Assembly: GCF_937616625.2 (NCBI RefSeq)
Contig: NC_065571.1
Span: forward strand, 14,944,501-15,008,500
Source: Mercurialis annua
Lineage: Eukaryota; Streptophyta; Magnoliopsida; Malpighiales; Euphorbiaceae
Direction: 5' to 3'
Length of the DNA stretch: 64,000 nucleotides
Shown: in pieces, positions 27,748-57,690 of the stretch
Layout: the number at the start of each line of letters is the position of its first letter
How positions within the stretch are numbered: position 1 is the stretch's first letter
Made by a program: the position numbers and the translations under genes
The notes under the pieces: model-generated
Databases searched by the model: none
Told to the model about the DNA's origin: nothing
What the model saw: only the letters and a program-made list of their open reading frames with translations

Positions 27748-27748
27748 A

Positions 27749-27785
<37 letters not shown>

Positions 27786-27849: not shown

Positions 27850-27891
<42 letters not shown>

Positions 27892-33103: not shown

Positions 33104-33138
33104 TTTCCCTTTCCCAATCCAGGTTACTTCTTTTTATT

Positions 33139-35099: not shown

Positions 35100-35100
35100 A

Positions 35101-35937
35101 CCAAATAAGGCGGGTGGGAACGCCACTAGTAACCTCGCCCATATCTACACTCATATCGACATGAAAATTGTCAAGCAAGTGGTCAAGAGAAGTTGACATC
35201 CTACAAAAAGAAAAAACAACATAACAAAAAGTTAGAAAAATACCTTCTAAAGGAAGACCCGCCAAAAGTATTTCACGGCGATTTAAATACTGCCTTAAAA
35301 ATGACGTTGTGCTTGGGCTTATTGAAGCGACAATCCGATAACAACGATAAGGCGAAATCTTTCTCCCCATCGGGCAAATCAGGAACAGCAGTGAGCGAAA
35401 CTTTACTTGTAGTAAAGCTCCGCGAAAAGGAAGAAAAGCAAAGATTTTGAACCAAGAAAAATTTAGGGGTCCAACCCTTTAAAGAAGACGGAAGAATAAA
35501 AAGAGATCGGTTCGGTCGACCGCCAGCAAAAATAAACTTCTCGCCCTTTCGGCGAGAGAAAACATAAAAATAATTAAAAAGACCAAGCGTAGGCTCTTTC
35601 CCCCGAGCCCTACAAGACTCCATAAAAGAACAGAGGAGGCAAATCGCATTAGGATGAAGTTGACCTAAAGGAATGCTTAAATTATGACAAACCTTTATGA
35701 TCAAAGACTCAAGAGGAAACCTAAGACCCGCTAGCAATTGTTCGTGAAAAACCACTATCTTAGAAGACGAATCTGTACTATGATTCGCCCGATATGATTT
35801 TCCAGGTCTCAAAATAATATATAACCCTGGAAAACCAAATTCTTCAGTATAACCAATTTTCTGTTGAACAGAAAGGGAACTTCGGGTATATTCTAATTCA
35901 TCACGAGCACCCCGAACCCCTCAGTTACTTCTGACAT
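35101..35937 (-). pseudogene. Tat-element antisense ORF, N-terminal half
   Basis: ATG at 35937 (SEVTEG), with a 1-bp deletion soon after relative to the frame that continues ARDELEYTRSSLSVQQ. The core (35812-35276) resembles the 'putative gypsy type transposon' domain: PLESLIIKVCHNLSIPLGQL, GKEPTLGLFNYFYVF and KGWTPKFFLV. A TGA lies at 35273-35275, a possible 43-bp intron at 35201-35243, then RMSTSLDHLLDNFHVDM. It stops at the inversion breakpoint near 35101; the rest is at 57531-60096. Such antisense ORFs lie between pol and the 3' LTR in Tat-lineage elements (maize Grande is an example). Function unknown. Confidence 0.75.
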
Positions 35938-36264
35938 TTTAAAATTTAAATGGGGGGGAACAAGGAATGACAACAAAATTAAGATTTTAAAAGATCAAAA
36001 GAAGGAGAAGATGAAGAACAGGAAAAACAGGAACAACAAAGAAAAAGAAATCCAGAAACTAAAAACAGGAAATTAAACCAAGGGAAGGCAAATACCTCGC
36101 AATCAAATATGCCGGATCAAAGGAGAGATAAGGAGCAACTCGAAAACGAGGAATCTTGGAGGTAAAAAAGAAAAGTAACTGAATTTGCTGAGAATTTGTT
36201 GAGAAATGATAGAACAACTGCAGAGAAAAACGAAAGTAAAAGTGAAAAGAAAACGAGGGAAATG

Positions 36265-36282
36265 AACATTTATATAACCAAG
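36265..36282 (-). promoter_or_regulatory. Possible TATA box of the antisense ORF
   Basis: The minus strand has GGTTATATAAATG about 330 bp upstream of the ATG at 35937. Placement fits a promoter for antisense transcription, but this is inference only. Confidence 0.35.
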
Positions 36283-36549
36283 AAAAAGAAGAAGAAGTTG
36301 AAAGGACGAAACCTTAAGAGTCGAGACGGATGAATGACAAATGGCGCACAGATAAGACACTTGTTCTTCATCCAGAAGCTGCCATTCGCTGATAAAGAAC
36401 ACGTGGCAAGAAAGAGAATCTTACTAGAGAAGAAAAACGACTCGCCAACATATGAAGTGACTCGCCTAGAATACGAAAAGACTCAGCTCCAAAAGAGCCA
36501 AAAACTACTAAGGCATGAATACCAATTACTTCAGCTCACTTGCGGGGGG

Positions 36550-37175
36550 TGTAATAATGGATACCGAATCCTACACTAGTTATAATGGAGCCGAGTCACA
36601 GGAGATCCATTCTCAGGTGATATCGGACTCCCTATGGAATACCTGAATGTATAAGGAAGGCGGCCGAATCCCTTGAGATCCGTCGATATATCATTCAATA
36701 AGACGAAGACCGAATCCCTTAGGATCCGCCCAAAGCGCGTTAATCCAGGATTCGGATAGATCGCCATGATCTACTATAATATCTCGAAGTATCTCCCCAA
36801 TTGGACATAATCTCCAACATGGAAAGATAAGCTCTATCTTAGGAAGACGAGACTATTTAGGAAGACGTTCCTAAATAGGACTCATGTCTGAATAAGGTAG
36901 ATCACACCAAATCAGGGTGAATCCCTACAAAGTAGGCTCGATCCCTATAAAATAGGATTCACTTACCTACTATGACTCTACAAGGTATACATTCATCTAC
37001 AATAAAAGGAGCATGAAGTATGCCTAGAATCACAATTACATTCATATACTCAAAACGCTACTCAAAGCTCTAAACTGACTTTAGCATCGGAGAGTTAATC
37101 GGACAACCACCGTCCGGTTAGCTTCTATCCTGTTTTGCAGGTCTCATTCACCGGTTCAGAAGGCAGACTCCATCA
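36550..37175 (+). repeat. 3' LTR of the Tat-type Ty3 element (about 626 bp)
   Basis: A G-rich polypurine tract (TTGCGGGGGG) precedes TGTAATAATGGATACC at 36550. The end is placed at ...GACTCCATCA, 37175, giving TG...CA. The tail with CTGACTTTAGCATCGGAGAG is typical of Tat/Athila LTRs. The orientation relative to the antisense ORF (35101-35937) matches the Tat architecture. The 5' LTR would lie right of the window. Confidence 0.75.
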
Positions 37176-38317
37176 AAAATTAATAGAAAGAGCTTGATTA
37201 TAATATTTTTATTTGATTTATTTTTATAATATGAGTTTAAGTCATTGGACTTTAAATTTTTAATCTCAATAATACGAGTTTAATTTTTGTTTATAGATTG
37301 TTTGAAGTCTTATATTTTAATTTTTAATAAAATATTCTCATTTATTATTTTAGCAAAAAAATTTATTATCCTATACTTTTTATTATATAAAATATTTATT
37401 TCTTATACAATTATATTAATAATTATTAAATATATTATTATTATTTTTTACCGGTTTAATCTCGGTTCAATCCCGGTTGAACCTCTAATTCTTCGCCCTA
37501 TATTCTCACCGGTTCAGTGGTCCGGTCGGTTTTGACAACTCATGAGGCTAACTTATAGAAACTAGTATGCTACTAAATGACAAACTAACAGCCTACCTCA
37601 ACCTACAACGGGTAGTTTTATCCTACTAGTATTTCTTTACGTGCTACGCACGTGGCTCGTAGTGTGACATGCTGATATATTTATTTAATATTCTGACATT
37701 AAATTTTAATAATGATGATATACTTTATTTTTGATTAAAAAATGATATACGTTATTTACAATATTACCATTATTTTAATAAAATGTTATAAGATAATTAG
37801 CTTGGTCTACATATGACATGGTAGACTCAGTCTTTTAACATACGAAACATTTAATTTGTTAATCAATGCACTTTTCATTAAATACAAAAGAAAAAAATAC
37901 ATTAAATTCTTCTATATTCATAAAAAAGCATATTTTTTAATTTTTAAAATATATCTAAAAATTGTAATATAAATTGAAAGTAGTTGAACAAATATAAAAA
38001 TAAAATTCAGCTTTAAAAAAAATAATAGTAATTTATTTTCATTAACAATTGAAGAAGACGATGTTATATTTGCTGGATTGCTAAACAACGCCCTTTTATA
38101 CTTAACACCGCCTCTACACATTATCTTTTTACCCTTTTCATTTTTTGAATAGAAAACCAAATCATAAAAAAAATTCTAAATCTTCTCAACTCATCTCAAC
38201 CATATTCAACTCATATTCTACGGCAAAGTCGGATTCCGAACGAGATAAAGACTGACAACCGCCGATAAGTATTTTTCTTAAAAATTCGAAATTTAATTTT
38301 TTTTTTCGGTTTTTGGG
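37176..38317. other. AT-rich intergenic
   Basis: No gene. CCGGTT/AACCGG words occur at 37450-37535. A Helitron-like end is at 37626-37653. Confidence 0.4.
37626..37653 (-). mobile_element. Helitron-like 3' terminus
   Basis: In the minus sense the hairpin ACGTGC-GTA-GCACGT (37653-37639) is followed 9 bp later by CTAG then T, matching the Helitron CTRR-T end. It is nearly identical to the hairpin at 4223. Confidence 0.5.
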
Positions 38318-38402
38318 GGGGACGTCCCCGTTTCACGTCCCCTCCGGAGGAGGGGACGTGGATCGCCAACGTCTGCTCCTCCAGAGTCCGCCCCTCCGGA
38401 GG
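38318..38402. repeat. Palindromic words 3' of the FAR1/MULE gene
   Basis: GGGACGTCCC, then GTCCCCTCCGGAGG-type dyads and CCCCTCCGGAGGGG. The same words occur on the other side of the gene at 40735-40850. Confidence 0.75.
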
Positions 38403-38489
38403 GGAAGCAGGGTTTTGCTGACCTTGGGAAGACTTAGGACGACCACGTACACGGTCCTTGTACTCATGACGACTCGGATCCCGCTTGGT

Positions 38490-40591
38490 TCATTGGCTCC
38501 CCTTTGGTCGACCTCTGACATTGGTCTTCACTTCTGGTTCCCTGTAGCCTAAGTCTTCGGGGTGAAGTCGCTCACGAACAATACGAGAAATATCACGCAA
38601 CATTGAAGGATTCTTAGTCATGACCTCCTCAGCGACCTCGTGAAAATACTGATGTTCCTCCGACCGAAAACCAGCATAATCTGCTTGTGCAGATGTGTCC
38701 AACCCATCGCCGAGAATAACAAGTTTCGTCTATAACGGGTGAATAATATCCATACTGATTGGGTTACCTGAAAATAACACAAATTAGCTTTCAATAACAA
38801 TATTACTATTTTTAATATAGTATGCAATAAAAGTGTTGCGTGGTACCTGAATCAACCACTGCTCGCAGGTCACTTGCATAGGGGATCTGATGTGTTGATC
38901 TAAGCACACAACCACAGCGATCATAGACTTCAGTACTCAATTCTCGCATACGCCTTAGTTCTTTCGATATTAAATTCAGACAGTAATGAGACACTCTGCA
39001 GGAGAGCTTATCAAATGGAAAACCGCGTTGATGGACGCCCATAGTCTGTCGAGAGTCCTCAAGTGTTTTGCTGCAAATATGCAAAACATTTATATTATTA
39101 ATAATGACAACATAATTTGTACAAGTAGTAATATTACTCGAAAAAAATGCATACCGGATATCCGTCAGCTGCGACTCTATAACTTTGTCGACCTTCGTCT
39201 AGACTGTGTCCAGAGCACCGGTGCTAGAGTTGAGCCACTGCTTTAGCTGAGCATGTGCGCTCTCCACTCTACACGTGGTGGTGTTTCCAAAATGTAGGAC
39301 TAAGTTCGTCCAGCAGGATACAAACTTCTCTCTGAGTACAAACCAAGTCCCCTCAATGTACTCTATCAACCATGGAAAAGCTTTAAACCGATCTCTGAAG
39401 GCTTCCACAGTTATGCTATATTGTTGGAAAGTTGGCGCTGTGCTAATTTTCTTCCAGGTACTATTCTTGAAAATTTCAGCAAATTCTTTGTTTTTCCCAC
39501 TTATTCTTTACACCCTATCTTCTACATCCTTATTTATGTGCCACGTACATAGTAGATGAGAAGAACGTGGGAACATCTCTGACACTGGTCTGATCAGCCC
39601 CAGTTCCCGATCAGTAAGAATAGCACTCGGATGAATATGTTCCCCAATCAACCACCTGCAGTATTACCCGATAATTTAATAAGGAATCTGAATATCATAA
39701 GTTTAAAATATTAAATAACATGATTATAATCAAATACCTCAGTCTCTCCATCACCCATCTATAGCTCCCCTCAGTCTCATCCTTCATAATTGCATATGCA
39801 ATTATAAAGTTCTTGTTGGAAGGAGTCATTCCAATAATCTCAAAAAAAGGCATCTTGTACTTGTTCGTCTTGTATGTGGAGTCCATACCGATTATCCAGT
39901 AGTACGAACGTAATAGCCTCACTGAATTGGGATGAGCCATGAAAAGGTGAGTCACCACACCTGTATCCTCCTCAACAAGAGTCCAGTGCACATAATCACT
40001 CTTCTGAGCCATGTGATAAAACTGACCCACCACATCTCTACACTCAAAGCTAGACTTTCTCAAATTCTCTCTGTAGTTGTACACTTGCCTTATTGTAGGG
40101 TTGTCAGATGGTACTTTTTCTTTCAAAGATGCCATTATAGAACACGGCTTCGCTTGTGCCGCACTCATATCTCGCACAATCTCTTTTGCCTCTGCACTCA
40201 GCCCACTCATCTGACGGTATCCCTCAGGATACACAGCTAAAGCATGGTTGTGTGTACTCAAAATACCAGGCTCAGCAAGTACAAACCATGTAGTCTTACC
40301 TAATTTGACAACAATTTTGAATTTGCACTGACACGCCTTTGTCTTCGCATTTTTTCGTACGAATGAATCAGAATCTGTGAACGAACCTCTGTAACGCTCA
40401 CCCCGAGCACATCTCAAAAGCTTTCATTTCCCCTCGTTCTTATGAGACGAAATTACTAACTCAAACCCAATCCCTATAGAAATACTCTTAGCCCATCTAA
40501 TTGCTTCAACATCAGTATCAAACCCATGTCCCGCATTAAACCCATCGCTGTAATCAATTTCGTCACCGCCAAAATCTTCTAAATGAACCTG
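38490..40591 (-). pseudogene. FAR1/MULE-type transposase, broken
   Basis: Four exons with introns 39656-39737 (82 bp), 39071-39154 (84 bp) and about 38768-38848. Exon 1 has a FAR1-like DNA-binding region (ARGERYRGSFTDSDSF, CQCKFKIVVKLGKTTW, STHNHAL) followed by the MULE transposase: YYWIIGMDSTYKTNKYKMPF (first Asp), ILTDRELGLI (second Asp) and LLCTWHINKDV. The C-terminal part ends EVKTNVRGRPKGSQ, as in FAR1-related proteins. In-frame stops occur near 40425, 39510 and 38723, so it is not functional. It could be a transposon or a FAR1-related relic; palindromic words on both sides favour a transposon. TIRs were not found. Confidence 0.85.
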
Positions 40592-40734
40592 CAAAACATA
40601 AATAATTACGTTTAACGAATCCTAATAATATTCAATATATATTAAATCGAATAAATTAATAAAATCACTTAAATTATTAAAAATAATATTATTTTAATTT
40701 TTTTTAAAAAAAAAATTCCGGCTGTGACCGTCCG

Positions 40735-40850
40735 TCGCAGTCGGAAACAGCCCCCTTCAAGCGGACGTCCGGCGTCCCCTCCGGAGGAGAGGACGTGGCC
40801 CTCCGGCGTCCCTTCCTCTAGGGGGGACGTGAATTGGGGTCGTCCACCCT
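40735..40850. repeat. Palindromic words 5' of the FAR1/MULE gene
   Basis: CGGACGTCCG, then GTCCCCTCCGGAGGA with GAGGACG, GGCGTCCCTTCC and GGGGGGACG. The core is shared with 38318-38402. Confidence 0.7.
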
Positions 40851-41521
40851 AAAAAACAGGAAAAAAAACTGTTCTTTTATCTCGGAAAAGTCGGAAAAAC
40901 TTGTTTCCGAACGTCGATACTCGTTACCCGACGAATTGTACTCGTTGTCCGTCATTTTAATCGGCTTTTTACGTATTTGTTCGCTAGACACAATAATAAC
41001 AAAACCTTCCCCAGTCAAATAACTAGTAAAAAAAATTATCAATAAATGGCCAATACTTTATAAAAACAAAAATTTAAATTTAAACAAGAAAAAAATACAA
41101 AAAGCCCTTGTCTTTTCCTTTAAAGCACAAAAGACCCCTGAATAATATTTCAGCAACCCCATTCCATATCAAGTGCTTCTATATTCGGCTTGATAATTGA
41201 AAAGCTTTATTCGGTGGCGGCCTCTCAAGTCCACTCGAGTGAGTGGACCCTGTGCGACCCGGTCTTATATTTTTATATTAGAAGTCGGTTTACATCTATA
41301 AACTGGACTAGACTACTTATTTAACAAAAAAATGTTATCATGTTTATTGTGTGGAACAAAGTCATTAACACACTATTTATATATATAAAAATTATAAAAT
41401 ATTAAAAATGAAAAATAGATAAAATAATTAAATTATAAACTAAATTATATTTTTTTTAATTTATATATTTATCCAAATAATTATAATTTGGGACGAAGAG
41501 AGTAATATTTATTTATTTATT

Positions 41522-41528
<7 letters not shown>

Positions 41529-41612
<84 letters not shown>
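41529..41612. repeat. (AC)42 microsatellite
   Basis: 84 bp of uninterrupted AC dinucleotides. Confidence 0.98.
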
Positions 41613-41615
<3 letters not shown>

Positions 41616-43129
41616 TAATTATCACATTATAATTTTTACTAAATTTTATAGTAATCAAATAGAACTGATTATTAAGGTGTATCAAAATTATATTTTGGTA
41701 AATTCATTAATAGAATTAATTATACAAGTATAATATGATATTTTTACAAATGAGGTGAGTTAAACTCATTTAAGCTATCTTTCTGAATTTTAATTTATTA
41801 TAACACACTCAATTTCCTACAAATTAAATAAATTAAATTTATATTTGGAAAAATAATTTATCAATAATAATTAGTAGAATTTTTTAACATTTATTATTAA
41901 ATTTTAATTAATTATAGCAGTTTTAGTGAAAAAAAATACATGTAATTTAATAAATTAAACCTTTTATTTTGAGAAATAAAAAATTAAACTTACATTCATA
42001 TTATTTTGTTATACTTGTGATGGGAGATGGTTTGACAGCCGGTTCATCAAACCACAAAAGAAAAATGTACTCATTGGTATCAAAGGCATTGATGATTTCA
42101 GTGCGAATAATATTATTTACACAAATGTTAAATTAATTATTAAAAATTTATTATATCTAATTAATTTTTGTTTTATTATTTGTTACAAAGTTCTCCATCA
42201 TGAGTAACGGCAAATGATGAAGAAAGGAGGAGTATGTATGACTTAAAGGTAATGGTTGGGGAAGCAGCAGTAAACTGAAAGTGAAATTTGATTTGAAAAT
42301 GTTACATCCAAAATACTAATTTCAAATAACCCTTTTTTCAAAGTATCTCAATAACCTTTTCAATTATTTTCCCCCCAAATTTTCAACTTGTAAATATTTT
42401 ATAATTATTATTGATATAGTTGATGGATTTTGTTATTTGAATATTCTATGGATATTTTAAAAAATAATTAGATGAAATCTAATTAAATTTTTTAATATTT
42501 TTCACCAATTTTCTATTATATTTTTAAATTTCCTAACAAATTTCTAACATAATTAATTTCCAAATTCTTCAACCTAAATATTTATAATTCTTTCAATTTA
42601 AAAATATTAACCTAATTCTTCAATCATATCTCCTTTAAAATCAACCCACCTCTAATTTTAAGTAAGTTTTATGTGATATGAATATTTTTTAAATATATTT
42701 AGAAATAACATGATGAAATCTAATCAAAATAAACCAATTTAGATAATGTATAAATTTGTTAATTATAAGAATACCAATAATTTACAATTTTTGTGATAAA
42801 AATAATAATAATTTGAGTGTTACGTCTAATTTTGTAGATTTAAAAGAGGACATTTAATCCGGGCTGAAAAAAATTTCTGTTTCTGCCACTGTTTATAATT
42901 ATTTTGTTTTTTACATAGTAAATCTTACTTTTTTTTTCATTTATTACCGTTGGATGAATTTTTATCACATTCATTCAATCTGCGATTATTTTTAGTTGTT
43001 TTTGGTCTCTCGGTGTACTAAACACAAAATAACTTCAATTTTACTTAAATGTTAAGTTCTAATTAAAAAAATTTAAAATACATAAAATTGAAAGATAGGG
43101 TCACAATCAATAAAAGTTGAAAAGGTAAG

Positions 43130-43327
43130 CAGGGGCGGACCTATAGTGGGCAGTTGACCACCTTATTATTTCGATTCTTTGAAAAATATGAATATACACT
43201 TTAGTAGTATAGTTTTTCGGCCTTAAAATTTATAGCACTGACCACCTTAAATTTTTAAATTTTTCCTTCTTATAAATATTTAGTACAATTTTGCCCACCT
43301 TATAATAAATTTCTAGGTCCGCCACTA
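43130..43327. mobile_element. hAT MITE (198 bp), unit 1
   Basis: Ends CAGGGGCGGACCTA and, reverse complemented, TAGTGGCGGACCTA. Flanks AAGGTAAG and AAGATAAG (7 of 8 match). Homologous sites at 20852-20859 and 50889-50896 have a single AAGGTAAG-type site and no insertion. Confidence 0.88.
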
Positions 43328-43503
43328 AAGATAAGGTCTTTGGATATAATTAAGTCTAAACCTGCAAAACCCTAAAATCTTGCTATCCTACCACTACCAA
43401 CTACCACCTATTTATTGAGTATTAACAATAGCTAAAACGATATTTCTTTTTAATAAAATGACCATATTACCCTACTTTTCCCTAACAAAGCCTCTAAGTC
43501 TTC

Positions 43504-43510
43504 TATAAAT
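43504..43510 (+). promoter_or_regulatory. TATA box of the unit-1 transcription unit
   Basis: TATAAAT in a C/T-rich context, about 75 bp before the hairpin at 43583. The same element is present in unit 2 near 46523. A 5'-UTR intron may run from about 43698 to 43902 (TTTTTGCAG acceptor). Confidence 0.55.
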
Positions 43511-43582
43511 ACTCCTATACTCCTCCACGTAAGTCTCTCACAGTCTCACTATTTAATATTTCCACGATACTTTTTCGGAGAT

Positions 43583-43669
43583 TACAAGTCTGTAGGGGGG
43601 AAATGCGTTCCAGTTTTATTGATTGAATTCACCAAAAACTGGAATGTATTTTCCCTCTACGGCCTTGTA
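43583..43669 (+). ncRNA. miRNA-precursor-like hairpin (candidate)
   Basis: Arms of 35 nt (43583-43617 and 43635-43669) pair with 29 Watson-Crick pairs, 5 G:U pairs and 1 mismatch, around a 17-nt loop. It lies about 75 bp downstream of a TATA box. I recognise no known miRNA family. The G:U pattern favours RNA folding over a recent DNA foldback. Expression is unknown. Confidence 0.4.
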
Positions 43670-43914
43670 GCCCACGAAACTATTTCCAATATCCAGGAAG
43701 GTGAACCACTATGATGTGGGATGAATATTTTTTTCTTATATTTCTACTGCTTGATGACCCCTAGAGCCTACTAACCCAACTAACTCTCTATTAACTGATT
43801 TTACCCCAGCTGATCCTTTTGATACCTTATTTGTGCCATGAAGTTTTTTTTTTCTATGATTTATTTGTTGCTTTTCTTATGCTATTTTTTTTATTTTTGC
43901 AGTGGTGATTTATA

Positions 43915-44302
43915 ATGAGCTCACCTGCTAGAAGCGAGAAGAAAGGACAGCGACGAAGCTAGAGAAGGTAACGATGGAGAAGATAAGAACGCCAAAAATA
44001 TTTGTTCTTTCAAAAAAGAACCTTCTGGCAAACTTCCTCCTCCTCCTCGAGTTTCTTTGAAGGGGATCATATTCACATATTTTGCTACTATCTCTCATCC
44101 TCTTGCTCCTCTTAAGAAAGTGCGGAAGAAGGCGGATAACCCTTTTTTCCCCATTGACCAAAAGAGGGAGGTTCTTTCTTCCGGGAGTAGGGTGAACATG
44201 GAGGATGATGTGCCTTCTATGAAAAGCCCCAAGAAGGACGTTCAAGTCAGCATGGTGGACATGCTGATTGGGAAATATGGAGCTACCGTCAGTGCCAGTT
44301 AA
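43915..44302 (+). pseudogene. Unknown ORF, frameshifted copy (unit 1)
   Basis: Same sequence as 46933-47316, but a 4-bp insertion after MSSPARSEK shifts the frame and gives a stop within a few codons. The downstream frame (44057-44302) is otherwise intact. Confidence 0.6.
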
Positions 44303-44677
44303 CTGAATGTGGCGATGAGTATTGTTCGAGACTCTGCCCTGCCTGTGGAGGTCGGCTATTTTAGCAAGAAAAAAAATGAGACCTTGCTAATGATATTCAA
44401 ATGGCTCTAGTCAAAATAAGTATTTTACTTAGAATTTTTTTAACGTAATAGTGTCAAATCATTCAGTGTTTTCTTTCTCAGTGCCTCTTTGCCTTTAACA
44501 AATTATAATATTACGATTACCGACTTTTAAATTTTTGTAACCAAATTTTAGTTTTACCAGCAACAGAAGTCACTAAATGATTTTCGTTGAATTTTTGCTA
44601 ACGTGGACAATGGACATATTATTTTTAATGATATGGTAAAATTAGGAAGACACGTATTTTTTCATTGGCTACCTAAG

Positions 44678-44894
44678 TAGTGGCGGACCTAGAAATATTT
44701 TATAAGGTGGTCAAAATTATATTGAAACTTTATAAGATAAGTAAAATTGACAACAAATAAATTTTAAGGTGGAAAAACTATATAATTTAAGGTGACAAAA
44801 TTATATTTTTCAATTTCATATCAACGTTTTTCAAAGGGACTTAAAATTATAAGGTGGGCAGTTGCCCACCATACGCTCTTCCTAAACGCCCCTG
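44678..44894. mobile_element. hAT MITE (217 bp), unit 1
   Basis: Left TAGTGGCGGACCTAG, right (reverse complement) CAGGGGCGTTTAGG. Exact 8-bp duplication TACCTAAG at 44670-44677 and 44895-44902. Confidence 0.9.
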
Positions 44895-46148
44895 TACCTA
44901 AGTATTTTTCGCACGAATACATTTTGTAACATCCGGTTGATAGTAAAATCAAAATTTGGTTGCTAAAACACAAGAGAGTTTGAAAGTTGATAACCATTTT
45001 GTATAACCACAAAAAATTCCTAGGACTTTTAGAGTTATATGGCTGTTTTAGTTAAGGATTAGGAATTTAACGTTTTTAATCGTTTTTAGCATTTTGGCGG
45101 AAACCGAATTACGGGTTTGAGAGGAAATGAAGTGTTTTAAATGTTTGGCTAGTGTTTCATTGGTATCAAAGGCATTGATGATTTCAGTGCGAATAACATT
45201 ATTTACACAAATGTAAAATTAATTAATAATTAAAAATTTATTATATCTAATTAATTTTTGTTTTATTATTTGTTACAGAGTTCTCCATCATGAGTAACGG
45301 CAAATGATGAAGAAAGGAGGCGTATGACTTAAAGGTGGTGGTTGGGGAAGCAGCAGTAAACTGAAAGTGAAATTTGATTTGAAAATGTTACATCCAAAAT
45401 ACTAATTTCAAATAACCCTTTTTTCAAAGTATCTCAATAACCTTTTCAATTATTTTCCCTCCAAATTTTCAACTTGTAAATATTTTATAATTATTATTGA
45501 TATAGTTGATGGATTTTGTTATTTGAATATTCTACGGATATTTTAAAAAATAATTTGATGAAATCTAATTAACTTTTTTAATATTTTTCACCAATTTTCT
45601 ATTATATTTATACATTTCATAACAAATTTCTAACATAATTAATTTCCAAATTCTTCAACCTAAATATTTATAATTCTTTCAATTTAAAAATATTAACCTA
45701 GTTCTTCAATCTTATCTCCTTTAAAATCAACCCACCTCTAATTTCAAGTAAGTTTTATGTGATATGAATATTTTTTAAATATATTTAGAAATAACATGAT
45801 GAAATCTAATCAAAATAAACCAATTTAGATAATGTATAAATTTGTTAATTATAAGAATACCAATAATTTACAATTTTTTTGATAATAATAATAATAATTT
45901 GAGTGTTACGTCTAATTTTGTAGATTTAAAAGAGGACATTTAATCCGGGCTGAAAAAAATTTCTTACTGTTGGATGAATTTTTATCACATTCATTCAATC
46001 TGCGATTACTTTTAGTTGTTTTTGGTCTCTCGGTGTACTAAACACAAAATAACTTCAATTTTACTTAAATGTTAAGTCCTAATTAAAAAATTTAAAATAC
46101 ATAAAATTGAAAAATAGGATCATAATCAATAAAAGTTGAAAAGGTAAG

Positions 46149-46346
46149 CAGGGGCGGACCTATAGTGGGCAGTTGACCACCTTATTATTTCGATTCTTTG
46201 AAAAATATGAATATACACTTTAGTAGTATAGTTTTTCGGACTTAAAATTTATAGCACTGACCACCCTAAATTTTTAAATTTTTCCTTCTTATAAATATTT
46301 AGTACAATTTTGCCCACCTTATAATAAATTTCTAGGTCCGCCACTA
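46149..46346. mobile_element. hAT MITE (198 bp), unit 2
   Basis: Same ends and flanks (AAGGTAAG/AAGATAAG) as 43130-43327; it was copied by the tandem duplication. Confidence 0.88.
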
Positions 46347-46601
46347 AAGATAAGGTCTTTGGATATAATTAAGTCTAAACCTGCAAAACCCTAAAACCTT
46401 GCTATCCTACCACTACCAACTACCACCTATTTATTGAGTATTAACAATAGCTAAAACGACATTTCTTTTTAATAAAATGACCATATTACCCTACTTTTCC
46501 CTAACAAAGCCTCTAAGTCTTCTATAAATACTCATATACTCCTCCACCTAAGTCTCTCACAGTCTCACTATTTAATATTTCTACGATACTTTTTCGGAGA
46601 T

Positions 46602-46679
46602 TACAAGTCTGTAGGGGGGAAATGCGTTCCAGTTTTATTGATTGAATTCACCAAAGTATTTTCCCTCTACGGTCTTGTA
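46602..46679 (+). ncRNA. Damaged copy of the miRNA-like hairpin
   Basis: The 5' arm is intact (46602-46636) but the 3' arm has lost AACTGGAATG, leaving pairing only for the outer ~23 nt (46657-46679). Confidence 0.3.
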
Positions 46680-46932
46680 GCTCACGAAACTATTTCCAAT
46701 ATCCAGGAAGGTGAACCACTATGATGTGGGATGAATATTTTTTTTCTTATATTTCTACTGCTTGATGACCCCTAGAGCCTACTAACCCAACTAACTCTCT
46801 ATTAACTGATTTTACCCCAGCTGATCCTTTTGATACCTTATTTGTGCCATGAAGTTTATTATTTTTTTTTTCTATGATTTATTTGTTGCTTTTCTTATGC
46901 TATTTTTTTTATTTTTGCAGTGGTGATTTATA

Positions 46933-47316
46933 ATGAGCTCACCTGCTAGAAGCGAGAAGGACAGCGACGAAGCTAGAGAAGGTAACGATGGAGAAGATAA
47001 GAACGCCAAAAATATTTCTTCTTTCAAAAAAGAACCTTCTGGCAAACTTCCTCCTCCTCCTCGAGTTTCTTTGAAGGGGATCATATTCACATATTTTGCT
47101 ACTATCTCTCATACTCTTGCTCCTCTTAAGAAAGTGCGGAAGAAGGCGGATAACCCTTTTTTCCCCATTGGCCAAAAGAGGGAGGTTCTTTCTTCCGGGA
47201 GTAGGGTGAACATGGAGGATGATGTGCCTTCTATGAAAAGCCCCAAGAAGGACGTTCAAGTCAGCATGGTGGACATGCTGATTGGGAAATATGGAGCTAG
47301 CGTCAGTGCCAGTTAA
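46933..47316 (+). CDS. Hypothetical protein, 127 aa, no family recognised
   Basis: The ATG follows a TTTTTGCAG splice acceptor and a short leader. The product is charged: SEKDSDEAREGNDGED at the N-terminus, a basic middle (KKVRKKADNPFF), and VSMVDMLIGKYGASVSAS at the end. After the TAA the same frame stays open for about 35 more codons (LNVAMSIVRDSALPVEV), so the ORF may be a truncated remnant. No transmembrane segment, signal peptide or known domain is seen. The upstream TATA box and probable 5'-UTR intron support a transcription unit. It could be a captured host exon or a retroelement accessory ORF. Confidence 0.4.
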   Translation: MSSPARSEKDSDEAREGNDGEDKNAKNISSFKKEPSGKLPPPPRVSLKGIIFTYFATISHTLAPLKKVRKKADNPFFPIGQKREVLSSGSRVNMEDDVPSMKSPKKDVQVSMVDMLIGKYGASVSAS

Positions 47317-47691
47317 CTGAATGTGGCGATGAGTATCGTTCGAGACTCTGCCCTGCCTGTGGAGGTCCGCTATTTTAGCAAGAAAAAAAATGAGACCTTG
47401 CTAATGATATTCAAATGGCTCTAGTCAAAATAAGTATTTTACTTAGAATTTTTTTAACGTAATAGTGTCAAATCATTCAGTGTTTTCTTTCTCAGTGCCT
47501 CTTTGCCTTTAACAAATTATAATATTACGATTACCGACTTTTAAATTTTTGTAACCAAATTTTAGTTTTACCAGCAACAGAAGTCACTAAATGATTTTCG
47601 TTGAATTTTTGCTAGCGTGGACAATGGACATACTATTTTTAATGATATGGTAAAATTAGGAAGACACGTATTTTTTCATTGGCTACCTAAG

Positions 47692-47909
47692 CAGTGGCGG
47701 ACCTAGAAATATTTTATAAGGTGGTCAAAATTATATTGAAACTTTATAAGATAAGTAAAATTGACAACAAATAAATTTTAAGGTGGGCAAACTATATAAT
47801 TTAAGGTGACAAAATTATATTTTTCAATTTCATATCAACGTTTTTAAAGGGATTCAAAATTATAAGGTGGGCAGTTGCCCACCATACGCTCTTCCTAGAT
47901 CCGCCCCTG
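47692..47909. mobile_element. hAT MITE (218 bp), unit 2
   Basis: CAGTGGCGGACCTAG and, in reverse complement, CAGGGGCGGATCTAGG. 8-bp duplication TACCTAAG at 47684-47691 and 47910-47917. Cleaner TIRs than the unit-1 copy. Confidence 0.92.
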
Positions 47910-48264
47910 TACCTAAGTATTTTTCGCACGAATACATTTTGTAACATCCGGTTGATAGTAAAATCAAAATTTGGTTGCTAAAACACAAGAGAGTTTGAAA
48001 GTTGATAACCATTTTGTATAACCACAAAAAATTCCTAGGACTTTTCTTTATCGTAGTGTTAATCACAATAACATTGTTGTAAAACTCTATTTCGCTTTTA
48101 ACTAAGTTGTTTATTGATTTTGAATTGACTGTCTTTCATCACCTGTTAATCACCGGATGTGATTCAGAAAATGCAGGTCTTATCAGAAATGTAAAGGCTT
48201 ATTTGCATAGTTTGGCACTACAAACTTTCTTAGCAAAAAGTGTTCTTAATGGTATATTTGAAAT

Positions 48265-48553: not shown

Positions 48554-48720
48554 TATTTGAAATGATACAGTACCACATTTTTGCATAGGCATAATTGCAC
48601 TACCAAAGTTTGAACTCTCTGTAATTTGCTAATTCTGTATGATTTTTTTTCGCTAAATCAATTGTTGAACTTTAAAAAGTTATGCGAATGTAGTGCTTAT
48701 CATTGATTTAACTTCATAAA

Positions 48721-49255: not shown

Positions 49256-49760
49256 GCTTTGCAGAGCCATGATCTCATTCAATCTTTCATTGTCTGTAAT
49301 GCTTGCAAGTATGTATGCAATTCTTGTTTGATGAAATGAAACTACAACAGTTTTGTTTAGTGATTTGTAGGGGTGTGAACTAAATTATCCTTACTGAATT
49401 AACCAAATTATTTTAGCTCTTTGACTAAATTTTAAACTGAATTACTAAGATTTTAAACATTTAAAAATAGATACTTTGAAAAAGATGTTTAATGTGTATG
49501 TTGCAATCAACTGGGATGATGTTGATAGGCTAATGTTTGGGTTTTCCAGGGAAGGTGGTGAACTAATGGTGATGATCATGTATACCACAGACAAAATAAC
49601 ACACAGTAAGATCACATGCAATGCGAGTCAAAAATCTATTTTAACCAAGACTCAGCCTTTACTCAACAAAAATGTTAAGTGCAATGCACATAATTTAATT
49701 CAACAAGGAATTGGATGAAGATCATAGTAATTCTAAAATTTTCTTTTCTAGAGGCTGTAT
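49256..49760. other. AT-rich gap, no supported gene
   Basis: An 80-codon frame at 49476-49718 has no recognisable content and low coding character. Confidence 0.35.
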
Positions 49761-49764
49761 AATT

Positions 49765-49875
49765 GGCCACTGATACAATGAAAAGGATGAAGATCACTCG
49801 AAATTTAAGACTCGGAAAACCTCCCTCCCAGTGATCAACTTGCCAGTATTTTCCAACTTTTGTAGCTGCATAAAT
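49765..49875 (-). pseudogene. FBD exon fragment with internal deletion
   Basis: Contains both ends of the FBD exon (GATACAATGAAAAGGATGAA and GACTCGGAAAACCTCCCTCC) with the middle deleted, plus the CTGCATAAATT acceptor region. Lies inside the inverted segment. Confidence 0.55.
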
Positions 49876-49959
49876 TGAACAAGTTAATCAAATCAAGTTT
49901 GTTTAATTAAATCAAGAGCAATTGTAATGTTTAGGGGCTTAAATATTTGTACAGTTACC

Positions 49960-50105
49960 GAACTATAGCTTTTTTACGATACGGGTAAATTATAAAAAAA
50001 TATAAAATGATTACGGAACTATAGTTTTCTACAAAATGGTTATACAAAGTTATAAAACAGTTACTACTTACTTAGCCAACTGATTTTGACACAGCTTGTT
50101 GATGT
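49960..50105 (-). repeat. Repeat matching the LINE's pre-insertion site
   Basis: In reverse complement it aligns to 24508-24603 and then, without a gap, to the reverse complement of 52736-52690, i.e. to the empty site of the LINE (AACTATARTTCCRTWATCAT). Confidence 0.6.
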
Positions 50106-50233
50106 AAAGTACGCATAAAAAGTACACGTATTTTTTAATGTTTTAATTTTAGTACAAAAGTTAAAATAATTTAATATTTAATATTTATAAATTAAAATTT
50201 AGAAAAAAAATTGGGAGAATTTTCTCTCTATGT

Positions 50234-50313
50234 TGTGCATGGAATCAAGGTTGATTCCATGCACAGATAATTAAAGTGACTCGCGGATTATTTCTGCGAG
50301 TCACTTTAATTAT
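50234..50313. repeat. Two consecutive perfect hairpins
   Basis: 50234-50265: 15-bp arms (TGTGCATGGAATCAA and its complement) with a 2-nt centre. 50267-50313: 18-bp perfect arms (ATAATTAAAGTGACTCGC) around an 11-nt loop. Related words (TGCGGGTTACAC, TGCGAGTTGC) follow to 50370. Another case of palindromic words. Confidence 0.85.
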
Positions 50314-50499
50314 GTGACTGGTCTCTTTTGCGGGTTACACTAACTTGTAAAACAATTCTGCGAGTTGCATAGGGTTTTTGGCATAAAATGAATTTTTTTT
50401 CTCAAGTTTAAGCTAAAGTGGAAAATTATGTTAATTTGTGGGTTAATAGGACATTAATCCCCATTTTTGTTTAGAACATGCCGCTACGATGATGTTATA

Positions 50500-50778
50500 C
50501 TCTCTCCGTCTCAATAGAGTTGTCCATTTTGAGAAATTTTTTTGTCCAAAAACTCTTATCCATTTTTAGAAAATAACAACTTTTACACTCAATTTTCCTA
50601 TATTATCCCTATTTAAAATTCACTAATGAGTAAATTAAAAGTAAATTGCAAGTGGATCCTATATTAAATAAGGGTATGACCAAAAAATAAAAAAAAAATT
50701 ATAAAAACCATAAAAATAATTGATTTTCTTAAACTGTGTGATAAAGGCAAAATGGACAACTCTATTGGAACGGGGGAG
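50500..50778. mobile_element. Stowaway-type (Tc1/Mariner) MITE (279 bp)
   Basis: TIRs CTCTCTCCGTCTCAATAGAG and, in reverse complement, CTCCCCCGTTCCAATAGAG, extending through TTGTCCATTTTG. TA target duplication at 50498-50499 and 50779-50780. Confidence 0.93.
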
Positions 50779-50786
50779 TACAATGT

Positions 50787-51120
50787 TTTAGGGTTTTGTA
50801 GGTTTTATGCCATACATGGTATCCAAATTATATATTTTATTTCAAATTGGTACTTTTAACTTATTTAGGCTTAATTGCATAGAAATATCTTACCTTTTTG
50901 ACTTTTATCGTTTATGATCCTATTTTTAAAAATCTTTAATTTTAACATATTTTTCAATTTTCAATTATTATGACTCAATATTTAATAAAATTGGAGTTAT
51001 TATTATTTTTAGTGTGCTAGTGACTGAAAAACAGCTAAAAACCCTCATTTGATACGCAATAGAGAGTTGAAATGCTAATGTAAAACAAATAGAACTTTAA
51101 ACGTCGCAATAGAAAAGTTC
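50787..51120 (-). repeat. Repeat R, partial copy without MITE
   Basis: Reverse complement matches 20787-21020 (TTTTAGGGTTTNGTAG, GGCTTAATT, GACTTTTAT). The MITE target site at 50889-50896 is unoccupied. Confidence 0.65.
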
Positions 51121-51299
51121 ATAAGTTCATACGTTGCTGATATAAAATTTTCATAAAATAAAGTATAAATATTTGTTACTACCTATATGCTAGAATGCAA
51201 AAAGAACAACACTTGTATTATTAATATACCCAACTTGGACTCTAATGGAAGCTTATTTAAAATTTGTTGTATATACTTTAGAAGTATAATTAAAATTGG

Positions 51300-51455
51300 T
51301 AATAATAGGTCTGCCCATCACCAGGAGGTCCAGAATTAATTTATCCAAATTAATGGTTTTTTCTAGAAAAATCGCTACCATTATGGTCTAGACTAAACCA
51401 GACAGTTTTGTGGATTTTAGGCAAGCCAAATCTAGACTGTATTCCCTACAACCAT
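51300..51455 (-). pseudogene. FBD exon fragment
   Basis: Diverged copy: AATTAATTTATCCAAATTAATG, TTTTTTCTAGAAAAATCGC and AGGCAAGCCAAATCTAGACTG align to the FBD exon. No open frame. Confidence 0.45.
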
Positions 51456-51945
51456 AACTTTATAAAATTATTTTTAAAAAATATAAAATTTAAGTAAAAA
51501 AATCAGAAATATCAAGATAAATTTTGTCTTCAAAAGTTTGGACTTTAGTGTCACTAGGATTTCTCCCATAACGGAATATGTTTGCAATATTTATGAAATA
51601 GTAGTGATTTGCATTTGCTTTGAACTAAACCAAACTGATTTCTTTTTTCAAATCATGTCAGAATAAGTTGATTTAGATAATTTTTTTCAATTTGATTTAA
51701 TTTTTATATTTTGATTTATATTAGATTTAACCGAATTTTAAATGGTCGAGACACAATAAAACTGATCGAAACATTAAACTTATTACATTGTCAAACCAAA
51801 AGTAGCCGATTTTGTTGGTCTTTTTCATTTTTTTTAATAGATCGGATTGTATACACTTCTATCGCTCTAAATCCATTGCCAACAAATGAACTAATAAGCT
51901 TAGGAGGAAAAAATAATCCACTAATGCAACATTGAAAATATATAA

Positions 51946-52097
51946 GTTATAGACCTATCACTCAAAGTCTCCTATCTTTAGTCTCTTTTGCAATTGCACC
52001 CTGGTGTATAAATTTTTCAATTTTATTCCATTTTGCCTTTTTGTGTTTAATTGTACTCTAAAACATTAAATTGACATCTTTATTAATTGTTGGCTAA
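51946..52097. repeat. Half of a MULE-like TIR
   Basis: GACCTATCACTCAAAGTCTC, then TTTGCAATTGCACCCTGG and ACATTAAATTGACATCTTT, resembles the left TIR of 8273-9382. No right partner was found. Confidence 0.4.
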
Positions 52098-52722
52098 AGG
52101 CCTTACCCATTATCCCTAGTTTTGATGATAATTAAAACCCACTAATTTTATTCGTCCAAAGTGTTATAAGGCCCATGTTTTAGAAGAATCTTAAAGGTTT
52201 CTTATTACTCAAGAAAAATGAATGGTGGGTATTTTGGTCATTAAGCTAAGGAGCCCACTCAGCCTACGCGCGCCCAGGCTGGAACCGTACTACTATCAAG
52301 CTGAGACGCTAACAAACAAGAGCAGTTATGTACTACTGTCTCACCAACAAACAGATTATTCACAAACTGAGTGGTCACCTCAGCTTAAGGATGCTCCTCC
52401 ATTTGTCATCTTATATCCCTTCACTTTATCAGTTTTGTTCAAGAGGCTCTTATCTTAAAATTATTTACGTTTGGGTGCCTGTATTTGGCAAAATTCTAAT
52501 TTTCAGATCCTTTTGAGGAACTGAAGGAACAAAAAATTTATAAGTAGAAGGACTGTAAAAAACTAAAAAAAGGCCTTAAAATCAAAAATTATATAAGTAC
52601 ACGGACCGGAAGAACAAAAGATAGTATAAAAGTTTCTTGAATAAAAATGATATAATACAAGATATTGTATATTATTTTAGCCTTTTTTATAATACTGGTA
52701 AATTATAGAAAATTATAAAATG
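52098..52722. other. Possible LTR fragment and AT-rich sequence
   Basis: TGTTGGCTAAAGGCCTTACC followed by TTTTGATGATAAT resembles the start of a Copia LTR. No second LTR, primer site or duplication found. No gene recognised. Confidence 0.3.
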
Positions 52723-52736
52723 ATAATGGAATTATA
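52723..52736. repeat. LINE target-site duplication, 3' copy
   Basis: Reverse complement of 24590-24603 (14 bp, exact). It is followed, in the LINE sense, by the unique flank. Confidence 0.85.
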
Positions 52737-52810
52737 TTTTTTTTTGGATAAATGATAAGTAGATTAGCGCACTCACAAACTGTGGGTGGCAAAAGAGACA
52801 AAGAAACAAA

Positions 52811-55800
52811 CTAAGAAAAATTATAGAAAAAATCTATAGTTCGAAAAACATCATTCCCGTTGAAAAGAAAGCTTGGATTCTTTGCACGGTAAAAATCGAC
52901 TGACTTGCAAATTGTCTTGAATATCAAGTTATTTAGATCTTCCGCCTCGTCGTTGAATACTCTCTTGTTTCTAATGCCAAACTCCGAAGAACCAAAACAA
53001 CTTCCAAAGAGAACGATATCTGCCCGAAGCCAAGGAAATCCAATACAAGAAGAAATTCTCAATTGAGTTTGGGGCAACCCAACTAATGTTACACTTCAGC
53101 AGAATAGTAGACCAGAAGGACCAAGCGTAGCTACAATGAAGGACGATGTAGGGGTGAGCAAAGTTTTGAAAAAACCGACCAAACCGACCGAACCGATGAA
53201 TTTCGGTCGGTTTGGTTCGGTGATAAATTTTCATTCGGTCGGTTCGGTTAAAAAAATATAAATTTTCGGTTATCGGTTAACGGTTCGGTTAAGAATCTAA
53301 AATTTACACTTTAACCGAACCGACCGAATACTTATAATTTTGAATGCTTATTATGAAAAGTAGGGTGATATTTTTTGAATTTAATTCTTGCTATGGTATG
53401 TTGTTTGGATTTGTGAGAAAATGCTTGATTTCTTTCTAATTTTTATAGAATTCAATTATTTGAATTTGTGAAAAAAATTAATTGATCTTTAAAGCATATG
53501 TAATTGAAAAAGCCCATAAAAGCCCATAAATAGCCCATTTAACCGAACCGACCGAACCGACCGAAAATATATTCGGTCGAAACAGATTCGGTTAATGTTC
53601 TTTGTTCGGTCGGTTCGGTCAAAAATATTACAACATTCGGTTTGGTCGGTTTGGCCATTTTCGGATCGGTTTTGACCGAACCGACCGAATGCTCACCCCT
53701 AGGACGATGTGAATTGCGGTTTCGTCGAAGTTACAGTGTGAGCATCCCCCTTGGTTTTCATTAAGGATTCCACGCCTTATCAATAAAGAATTGGATGAGA
53801 TACGGTCCCGAGTCAACAACCAAACGTAAAACTGAATTCGAGGGGGTATATGTTCCTTCCAAATCGCCGGAGCAAGAAAAGAAGTTTCTGTCCGATTCTG
53901 AACAGTAGAAGAGGAGAAAAGCATTGACATTGTTGCTGATGTGTACTTACCAGAATGGAGCAAGCTGAAGTCATCTGGAACGCTGATCATGAGATGCGAC
54001 GGCAGCAGCTCTAACAACGACGCAAATCTCTCCTGCTCTCCAATGCTGAGGCGCCTGGACCAGCAGAAATGACTGAAACTCTGAGTTTGATGATTAAACA
54101 TTGAGGCAACATTGATATCCTGGTTTCTACTTAGACGATAGAGATCTGGAAATAAATCAATAAGAGGAGTTTGTAACCATCTATCTTTCCAGAATCGCGC
54201 TTGGTTCCCGTCTCCAAGCGAAATAGAAACAGAATTCATGAAAGTGTTCCAAACAGCCCTATCCTTTACACAAAGCTTATAGATTCCTTTCCAAGTGTGA
54301 GAAAGAATGTTTACGTTAACTGTTTCGATATTAGACCAAGATGATAAGGTGGAGCTATTCGAGACTACCGCAAACCAGAGCGATTGTTTGTCGCAAACCA
54401 TCAATTTCCAAATCCATTTCAAAAGCAAACTAATGTTTTTATTTCGGATAGGGGTGATATTAAGACCCCCGGCACTGAACGGTGTGCAAACGTCTGTCCA
54501 ACCAACTTTGCTAAAGCCTGGACTATCAACTCTCCCATTCCAAAGAAATCTACGCATTACACGTTCTAGGACAGCCCCTACGGCTTGAGGAATACGCAGA
54601 GACCCAAGAAAATAAACCGGCAGACTGCATAAGACCGATTTAACAAGAATAAGTCGCCCTGCAGGGGACAAAAGATTGCCTCTCCACGAAGTCAGTTGAC
54701 TAGTGAAATTATTAATAACCGGATCCCAAAGCCTTGGACCAACCGTTCTGTCAGATAACGGAAGCCCCAAATATGTAATCGGTAGCGCTTCAACTTTACA
54801 CTTCAGAATTTCTGACGCTCGAGCAAGGGAATGAGTGTCAACGTTGATGCCGATTATGGAAGATTTTCGATAATTAATCTTCAAGCCTGAGATGACTTCA
54901 AAGCATCTCAAAATGCGCAATAAATTCTCAATCATAAGCATATCATTGGGAACAAAGAGAAGAGTGTCATCTGCAAACTGCAGGATAGAGACAGGGTCAT
55001 TTAAACCATCAACGCACACGCCGGAAAGCAGCCCCAAATCTGCCGATTTTGCCAAAATTGCTCTAAGACTTTCCACCGCTAAGACAAAGAGCATTGGAGA
55101 GATCAGATCACCCTGACGAACTCCTCTCCCCATGAAGAAATTATCTGTTGGGCTACCATTGAGTAAAACGGAGAGCTGGGCTGAATCAAAGCAGGAGGTA
55201 ATCCAGCTAATCCATTTTGAGTCAAAGTTCATTCTGCTCAAAGTTTTCAAAATAAAATTCCAGGATATCGTGTCAAATGCTTTTTTGAAATCCAATTTAA
55301 TTAGAAAAGCTTGTTCTCTCCGACGTTTAACCAGATGAATGATCTCCGAAGCGATCATATGGCAATCATGGATACTTCTCCCTTTAATAAACCCAAATTG
55401 GTTCTCCGAAATAACCGAAGGTAAGAGAGGAGCCAAACGGTTAGCTAGCACTTTTGAAATAATTTTGAATACTCCGTTAATCAAGCTGATCGGTCTAAAA
55501 TCCTTAATATCCGAGGCACCTTTAAATTTCGGCAACAACACTAAAAATGTCGTATTTAAACCCACAGGAAAAGAAGCTGAGCGAAAAAATTCCTGAAATA
55601 AAATAATAAAATCTTGCTTTAGAATTTTACACGCCTTTTTGTAAAAAAAATTATTGAAGCCATCCGGACCCGGAGCTTTGTTGTCGTCACAACTCAATAA
55701 GGTAGCAAGAATTTCCTCTTCCGAAAATTGGGCTGAAAGGAATGAAGCTTGGTCATCTGCTAACATACGGATAGGGAGGGAATCAAGGGAGAAGCTGATA

Positions 55801-56474
55801 TAAGGTTGCTGCGCAAATAATTCTTTATAAAAAGAATGAACCTTCTGCTGAATAACTCTTGGGGAGCTATAGTAGATACCGTTAATGCATATATCAGAGA
55901 TTGCATTACTGTGGGAGTGCATTGAAGCTATAGTATGAAAATATTTCGTATTCCTGTCCCCGTGAAGATTCCAATTAAGTCTAGATTTTTATTTCCATAG
56001 GGATTAAAGATGCTTTGAAACCTGCTCGAACTCAGAGTAAAGGCTGCCCAGTCTAGTCATATCGTCTTCCTCAAGGTTTGCAAAATCTGATTTAGCTTCA
56101 ATTGCCGAAATGTCAGACTTAACTCCTTCTAACTTCACATTTAAGTCGCCAAAAATATCACGGTTCCATGTCTTAATCGCAATCCTAAGCTCCCGAAGCT
56201 TAACCACAAGGTTAGCGTTGGGCAGCCTATGCGCGATAGAAATCCAGGAAGAATCAACAAAGCCGCTGAAATCTTTATGAGACCACCATGCATTAATCGA
56301 TTTGAACGGCTTTGGGCCCCAGTTCCTTGGCAAATCCGAGATGAACAGGATAAGTATGTGATCAGAAAATGATTTCGGAAGCGCCCGTAGCACGCAATTC
56401 GGCCAAGCAGTAAAGGCCGAGGGAGACAGGAAACACCTATCTATCTTAGAACGAGCTATTCTGTTTTGCCAAGT
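52811..56474 (-). pseudogene. LINE ORF2: endonuclease C-term, reverse transcriptase, zinc region
   Basis: Begins TWQNRIARSKIDRC and KSFSDHILILF (catalytic SDH). Two in-frame stops lie near 56006 and 55988. The RT follows: APGPDGFNNFFYKKA, FRPISLINGVFKIISKVLAN, LIKLDFKKAFDTISW, GVRQGDLISPMLFVLA and catalytic QFADDTLLF. A CCHC-like zf-RVT region (GGCSHCNFDETAIHIVL) is split by a hAT MITE at 53149-53701 and resumes with HCSYAWSFWSTILL, ending TAA at about 52811. The RT itself is open from 55922 to the MITE. It nicks DNA and primes reverse transcription at the target. Confidence 0.93.
53149..53701. mobile_element. hAT-type MITE (553 bp) in LINE ORF2
   Basis: TIR TAGGGGTGAGCA and its complement; exact 8-bp duplication GGACGATG at 53141-53148 and 53702-53709. 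Both subterminal regions are arrays of (C)CGACCGAACCG words and their complements (TTCGGTCGGTTCGG). Confidence 0.93.
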
Positions 56475-57530
56475 TGTAATACCCCAAAAGATTTAATTAC
56501 CTAATTGGACCACGTGTCCAGCCTTGAGTCGCCGGAGAGGCAATATCGGAAAGTTTTCCGAGAAATTAAGGTAAATAAGTTTCAAGTAGGTCGGTTTTGG
56601 GAGGATAATAATGATGTATTTAATATTATCTCCTAGCTAGAAAGTTGGAATTGGAATGAAGAGGGAAAATGTCAAGAAAAGTCCCAAAATGAAGTTCAGG
56701 GACTAAAGTGGTAATTTAGCCAGTGCATCTCAAAAATAGAAATTTATAAGTTTTGACGGGAAAATATTAATATTGGAATTCGTATTGTTTATTGGATATA
56801 AATAATACGTATGAAAATTGGTTAAAGGATTAATCAATTTAGTTATGGACTAAATTGAACAAAAGAAAAGTTCAAAGGTTAAATTGTAACAAATAAAGAA
56901 AATAAGGCTTGAAGGGATGATTTAACCATATATATATATAACTTTCATTATGAATGAAAGAATCAGCGATAAGGAAAGGGACTCCAGAAGCTTCATTTCA
57001 TCGTTCTCGATCGTTTCGCCGCCGTTTCGCCGTTCGACGTCCGTTTCAGACGATTTTCGCGTCGATCTCTTCGGAATTCAAGCCTCTATCCCTTACTAGC
57101 ATCAAAATAAGGTGAGTTACACGTTTTTACCACGAAAAATGAAGAATAGGGGGCTGTTTTGCGGGTTAGATCGTATTTCTATTGAATTCGACGTTTTGGA
57201 GCGTTTTGGGTTGATTTTGAAGTGTAAAATGATGAATTATGGATTAAAATGAATTGGGTATGAATTGGTATGAATTATGGATGATTTGAGGCCTCGGAAA
57301 CGGCCGGAATCCGTCAAAACGTCGCACCCGAAAGGGGTGCACGACGTGCTGAAAATCAGCACGTCGTGCTGGTGCGCGACGTGCACCACAAGGGTGCACG
57401 ACGTGCACCATGAAGGGCACGACGTGCCCTTCACAAAAATTGAAGGGCACGACGTGCCAAGCTAGCACGACGTGCCCTACCTCGACCAGAACCTCCGTGG
57501 GACTTTCGGGAGCGAAAATGAGCCTCCGAT
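56475..57530 (+). repeat. LTR 'B', second part (inverted)
   Basis: Starts TGTAATACCCC directly after CAAGT (ACTTG in the LINE sense) and matches the reverse complement of 29391-28310 at roughly 99.5%. It ends in mid-LTR at CTCCGAT, 57530. The palindromic cassette is at 57303-57475. Confidence 0.92.
57303..57475. repeat. Palindromic-word cassette, inverted copy
   Basis: Same GCACGTCGTGC-core dyads as 28357-28520, in reverse complement, with all the dyads retained. Confidence 0.88.
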
Positions 57531-57690
57531 TACTGCCGTCCCAAATCCGAACCCTAGTTCGATGGATCTCGCGCCTACTGCTATTGATCAGGTGCCCTCT
57601 GTTAGTCCCAAGTCGTCTTCACTTCCTGCGAAGGGTTCGGATCCTTATCTGAAGGAGTTGACTACCGCCGGTAAGAAACGTCCTGCCGAG

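Follow-up and report, generated by a model that had tools for sequence, protein, structure and literature searches.

Inversions are usually found through the comparison of genomes. Those generated by Galileo in Drosophila reportedly arose, going by title, through ectopic recombination (PMC2775673). For rice, the portion of a survey drawn on here lists 1769 inversions from 73 rice genomes and two wild relatives, approximately 700 per million years; 59 of 100 inspected inversions were without clear inverted repeats at their breakpoints, and a Ty3-gypsy family was reported at inversion breakpoints (PMC10030860). The maize P1-wr region, in the part of the source used here, has been traced to a history of NHEJ, recombination and transposition (PMC2686159). 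A further point of reference is provided by Retand elements, which, according to the part of the description that concerns their structure, contain an antisense TRP28 gene between pol and the 3' LTR, with a pol–3' LTR region of 2,933–6,566 bp in 63 Retand clusters (PMC11963269).

In this study, we describe an inversion that is readable from a single sequence and whose breakpoints lie in known elements. The window, by which we mean the whole stretch of 64,000 nucleotides of Mercurialis annua DNA that was analysed, was compared with itself, both junctions were read, and the junctions were aligned with an intact LTR copy, referred to as copy A.

Results

The segment 35100–57530 is reversed between two points, and both junctions are reciprocal. 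The initial annotation had proposed an inversion of about 22.4 kb at this place, with breakpoints inside an LTR and an antisense gene of the Tat lineage. The inversion is confirmed in the given sequence, and the proposed placement of the breakpoints accounts for the broken features.

35100..57530, unstranded: inverted segment, 22,431 bp; flipping it restores the LTR, the LINE, the empty site and the Retand order
35099..35100, unstranded: left breakpoint junction, LTR against Retand antisense exon
57530..57531, unstranded: right breakpoint junction, remainder of the LTR against remainder of the Retand exon

Four features are made whole by flipping 35100–57530, namely a solo LTR, the target-site duplication of this LTR together with an endonuclease, the target-site duplication of a LINE together with its empty insertion site, and a Retand-like element. 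Because it is the uninverted order that makes them whole, this order is the ancestral one. What can be read off directly is the order and orientation of the segment, which are inverted, the direction of the change and, to the base, the junctions on the LTR side; the plant molecule itself probably has the inverted order as well.

The solo LTR provides the junctions at the highest resolution.

26772..29391, minus strand: LTR copy A, intact and presumably a 3' LTR; adjoins a polypurine tract and internal sequence, and serves as reference for the break
33699..35099, minus strand: solo LTR (copy B), left part, collinear with copy A
56475..57530, plus strand: solo LTR (copy B), right part, inverted, collinear with copy A
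33694..33698, plus strand: target-site duplication of the LTR, ACTTG, 5 bp, left
56470..56474, minus strand: target-site duplication of the LTR, ACTTG, 5 bp, right, inverted

In the alignment, copy A (26772–29391) matches 33699–35099 and then the reverse complement of 57530–56475, and it is collinear with the broken LTR except for 13 bp (28297–28309 of copy A) that are lost between the two halves. This bears out the proposal that the LTR was cut in its middle at 35099 and 57530 with 13 bp missing. The broken LTR starts with TGTCACG at 33699 and finishes with TATTACA at the reverse complement of 56475, and ACTTG flanks it on both sides, in direct orientation after the flip. With its TG...CA ends, its target duplication and no internal region it is a solo LTR, and its element sense is probably that of the minus strand, judging by the polypurine tract that adjoins copy A. 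Its placement in the Ty3 superfamily comes from the initial annotation and is putative; no coding domain was identified for this element. An apparently higher divergence of the right LTR half (97.1% against 99.1–99.8% in BLAST) was dropped, as it consists mostly of two gaps of 20 and 6 bp. Elsewhere in the window, an LTR-like fragment at 22084–22734 is approximately 72–79% similar to the final ~630 bp of the broken LTR.

The ACTTG duplication sits within the endonuclease of an L1-type LINE, and the LINE was in turn split by the inversion.

24604..26771, plus strand: L1-type LINE 5' part, copy A, with ORF1 (24608–26173) and the start of the endonuclease
32642..33698, plus strand: duplicated LINE part (end of ORF1, endonuclease), directly left of the broken LTR
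52737..56474, minus strand: LINE 3' part, inverted, with the end of the endonuclease, RT (RVT_1), zf-RVT and a short poly(A)
24590..24603, plus strand: LINE target-site duplication, 14 bp, left
52723..52736, minus strand: LINE target-site duplication, 14 bp, right, inverted
~49969..50103, minus strand: paralogue of the empty LINE insertion site, from the alignment of the joined LINE flanks

ORF1, an endonuclease, RT, poly(A) and a target duplication of the variable kind identify the element as an L1-type plant LINE; ORF1 matches DUF4283 with a score under the curated cut-off. In Pfam, the left half of the endonuclease, which has one in-frame stop, written X, matches positions 1–163 of 225 of PF03372 with 33.7 bits and the right half alone has no match to this family, whereas the two halves joined with an X at the join match positions 1–225 of 225 with 45.0 bits. 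When ACTTG is counted once, the codon phase is unbroken at the join: the left half stops after the second base of a codon, for which 56469 supplies the third. A search of the endonuclease pieces against the PDB gave no match at E up to 1. Both the continued codon phase and the extended coverage of PF03372 are in agreement with the earlier suggestion that the flip rejoins the endonuclease at ACTTG. The second duplication had also been said to become direct, and indeed the 14-bp sequences at 24590–24603 and 52723–52736 are inverted as the window stands and direct after the flip; when a 91-bp stretch from outside the segment was paired at random with one from inside, 1 of 3000 pairings had at least 14 bp in common.

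The flip further restores a contiguous pre-insertion repeat, as had been supposed. Placed in flipped order with the duplication present once, the LINE flanks align with a paralogue within 49900–50170 over 137 columns (76%, 95.4 bits) and without interruption at the insertion point, compared with 52.5 bits for the same host DNA unflipped, 51.1 bits for the left flank alone and 58.3 bits for the right flank alone.

At the other break, the parts belong to what appears to be a Retand-like element of the Tat lineage.

35101..35920, minus strand: Retand antisense gene, N-terminal half with Transposase_28/TRP28 (PF04195)
57532..60093, plus strand: Retand antisense gene, remaining exons, exon structure presumptive
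60509..63407, minus strand: Retand-like pol with RT, RNase H and integrase, broken by a stop codon and a change of frame
36542..37173, plus strand: Retand-like polypurine tract and 3' LTR, the LTR running from 36550 to a presumptive end

TRP28 (PF04195) is encoded at 35273–35920 on the minus strand (E = 4.2e-7, above the cut-off), and the N-terminal half of the gene (35101..35920) probably contains a frame change and an intron. The C-terminal part at 59602–60093 looks like a coiled coil; three helical families were matched here, all below their cut-offs. As the window stands, pol and the 3' LTR are oppositely oriented. After the flip they are ~4.43 kb apart, and in the flipped order only does the antisense TRP28 gene come to lie between them. 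The name Retand is applied on the basis of gene arrangement, not of an RT tree, and should be read as a probable assignment; order, orientation and distance likewise suggest that the two parts are those of one element. Searches of the Retand pieces against viral_contigs gave no confirmed relative and no exact match for a 22-mer, and in genome_contigs there was one exact 20-mer match, to an Acidobacteria MAG contig, which was taken as chance.

The open frame of the presumed next Retand exon reaches 35101 on the minus strand and resumes at 57532 on the plus strand, so that the reported splitting of the antisense ORF stands. That a shared ATT keeps the frame at the join is not supported; the A and T of this triplet (57529–57530) match the LTR copy. 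A blunt join leaves two spare bases (35100 and 57531) between the codons and is off frame by one; if both parts belong to one exon, bases were therefore lost or gained at the break. Seen from the LTR side, at neither junction does the base that was joined agree with the one that came next in the ancestral sequence, and for this reason no microhomology is visible there.

The broken LTR also lies in a tandem duplication of 6.9 kb, whose unit starts in LINE ORF1, where 25715 corresponds to 32642, and whose second copy, copy B, covers 32642–35099.

25715..32641, plus strand: tandem duplication, first unit (LINE part, LTR and internal part)
29392..32641, minus strand: stretch next to LTR copy A, presumably the 3' internal part of the element; ends at the tandem-duplication junction

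The intact and the broken LTR copies are 7 kb apart, and both are within the duplication. Copy A keeps the polypurine tract and further sequence beside the LTR, and copy B is a solo LTR; there is no ORF of at least 120 aa wholly inside 29392..32641. Over 3514 bp there are 12 substitutions between the two copies (0.34%), one of which sits 2 bp from the duplication junction; left out of this count are gaps of 124, 20 and 6 bp, as well as two apparent differences beyond the junction. Because copy B alone is broken, the inversion is most simply placed after the tandem duplication, and the age of the duplication is then a maximum for that of the inversion. Substitution rates used for dating are 1.3e-8 and 7e-9 per site per year. 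At these rates the divergence suggests a maximum age of ~0.13–0.24 million years, an estimate that gene conversion or exchange between haplotypes could upset.

The sequence next to the right breakpoint contains an array of short palindromes.

57339..57475, unstranded: palindrome array of the LTR, units GCACGACGTGC/GCACGTCGTGC, with 55 bp between its end and the right breakpoint

In the intact LTR copy this array occupies 28365–28501 and is a very strong hairpin former, and 28297–28500 of this copy folds with z = -10.1. Among 638 windows of 200 bp, the one at 57301 is third in folding strength, and those at 35001, 35101 and 57501 take places 285, 254 and 75. For two breakpoints, the chance that one falls no more than 60 bp from any of the top four arrays is ~4%, with a threshold that was chosen once the ranking had been seen. 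The ranking of the 638 windows revealed no comparable array at the second (Retand) break, where 57531–57731 folds more strongly than shuffled versions of itself (z = -3.1, 0 of 200). The LTR also has a palindromic (AT)n tract, which is 137 bp long in copy A (27753–27889) and 124 bp shorter in copy B (34680–34692). Further arrays of short palindromes at 2501–2800 and 8801–9000 are among the strongest folding windows.

Several other features are present in the window. Inside the inversion are tandem ~3-kb units, 42071–45030 and 45157–48045, which are ~97% alike, and a MULE transposase remnant (PF10551; 39698–40423, minus strand). A third, partial copy of the ~3-kb unit, 81–94% alike, is found outside the inversion in the opposite orientation (20852–22037). 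A Copia element at 10982–16263 has 271-bp LTRs that are 95.6% alike and a gag-pol in several minus-strand ORFs, and a palindrome of ~380 bp at 18539–18920 has arms that are 88.6% alike.

Discussion

According to the history that we favour, two double-strand breaks would have occurred 22.4 kb apart, one in the solo LTR and the other in an exon of the Retand-like antisense gene. Non-homologous (or alternative) end joining would then have put the broken ends back together the other way round, and 13 bp would have gone missing at the LTR break. We consider it highly probable that two breaks were rejoined in this way with this loss. No inverted pair linking 32.0–38.0 kb with 54.5–60.5 kb was found at E 1e-5, and less than 1 kb from the breakpoints weak inverted matches reach no more than 22 bp (82%); as there is no long inverted homology at the breakpoints, end joining is the simplest route, and it is probably how the ends were repaired. 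In addition, no terminal inverted repeats, as for an inversion driven by a DNA transposon, were seen when both junctions were read by eye. The initial annotation had already suggested end joining, with a small deletion and microhomology. The 13-bp loss and the lack of inverted homology agree with that view; microhomology is not seen on the LTR side, where the ancestral sequence is available for comparison.

The main rival to end joining is that replication template switching (MMBIR/FoSTeS) made the inversion, perhaps jointly with the adjacent 6.9-kb tandem duplication. Complex rearrangement events can combine duplication with inversion, and the duplication junction at 32641/32642 is 2,458 bp from the left breakpoint. 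On the other hand, the joins on the LTR side are without any extra copied segment, and the 12 substitutions in 3514 bp between the copies mean that the duplication may be of a different age. Neither of these points is decisive, and we regard template switching as doubtful.

It might also be that the plant carries the uninverted order and that the inversion is an artefact of assembly or of chimeric reads. The left breakpoint lies in an LTR that has a near-identical copy 7 kb away, a setting in which assemblers can err, and the 0.34% divergence between copies A and B is also what alleles may show, so that part of the region could conceivably be a mixture of haplotypes. However, the two breakpoint regions have no homology to each other, the LTR junctions are reciprocal within 13 bp, two matching chimeras would be required, and the window is without N. 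Assembly error is unlikely, and we give such an artefact very little weight.

A third possibility, that inverted repeats at the two ends of the segment recombined homologously, was rejected. The breakpoint regions are rich in repeats; however, the inverted homologous copies that this route needs at both ends were not found in the searches described above, and the breaks fall in the middle of an LTR and of an exon, which leaves such recombination hardly credible. Last, the idea that each half is a separate, truncated copy of its element, which is imaginable in that repeat families are involved and LTR copies do occur in the window, was rejected as next to impossible, since chance would have to account for the two target duplications, the codon-continuous endonuclease, the empty site and the Retand order together.

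As to why the LTR broke where it did, the GCACGACGTGC palindrome array and the nearby (AT)n tract might extrude hairpins and so make such LTRs recurrent starting points of inversions in this genome. This is a long shot, and we offer the link between hairpin and breakpoint as a hypothesis and a lead only. If the array were a recurrent break site, transposon sequence would be linked to where plant chromosomes rearrange.

In this inversion, the nested elements served as a built-in ruler, consisting of the two target duplications, the empty site with its paralogue and the gene that was split. Halves of mobile elements can in this manner reveal the break sites, the former orientation and, roughly, how recent a flip is. 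Inversions of such a kind are ordinary and common in plants, and the one described here is a cleanly legible and well-resolved example.

In the inversions generated by Galileo in Drosophila, as in the one described here, transposon sequence is paired with breakpoints; in contrast to them, no homology was found between the ends of the present inversion. The Retand-like element resembles the Retand elements in the placement of the antisense TRP28 gene and in a pol–3' LTR distance within the range given in the portion of that description used here, and differs from those described there in that the copy is split by an inversion and its pol is interrupted (PMC11963269). As in maize P1-wr, a history of breaks and end joining could be rebuilt from one region with tandem repetition; the maize locus, as far as the part of the source used here describes it, is a cluster of tandemly arranged genes, for which filler DNA is described at one chimeric gene, whereas at the present locus it is transposons that are involved, together with an inversion, and no filler could be recognised on the LTR side (PMC2686159). 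Like the rice inversions, as presented in the portion of the survey cited, the inversion lies in DNA rich in transposable elements; those were found by genome comparison, whereas here the inversion was polarised and placed within one sequence (PMC10030860).
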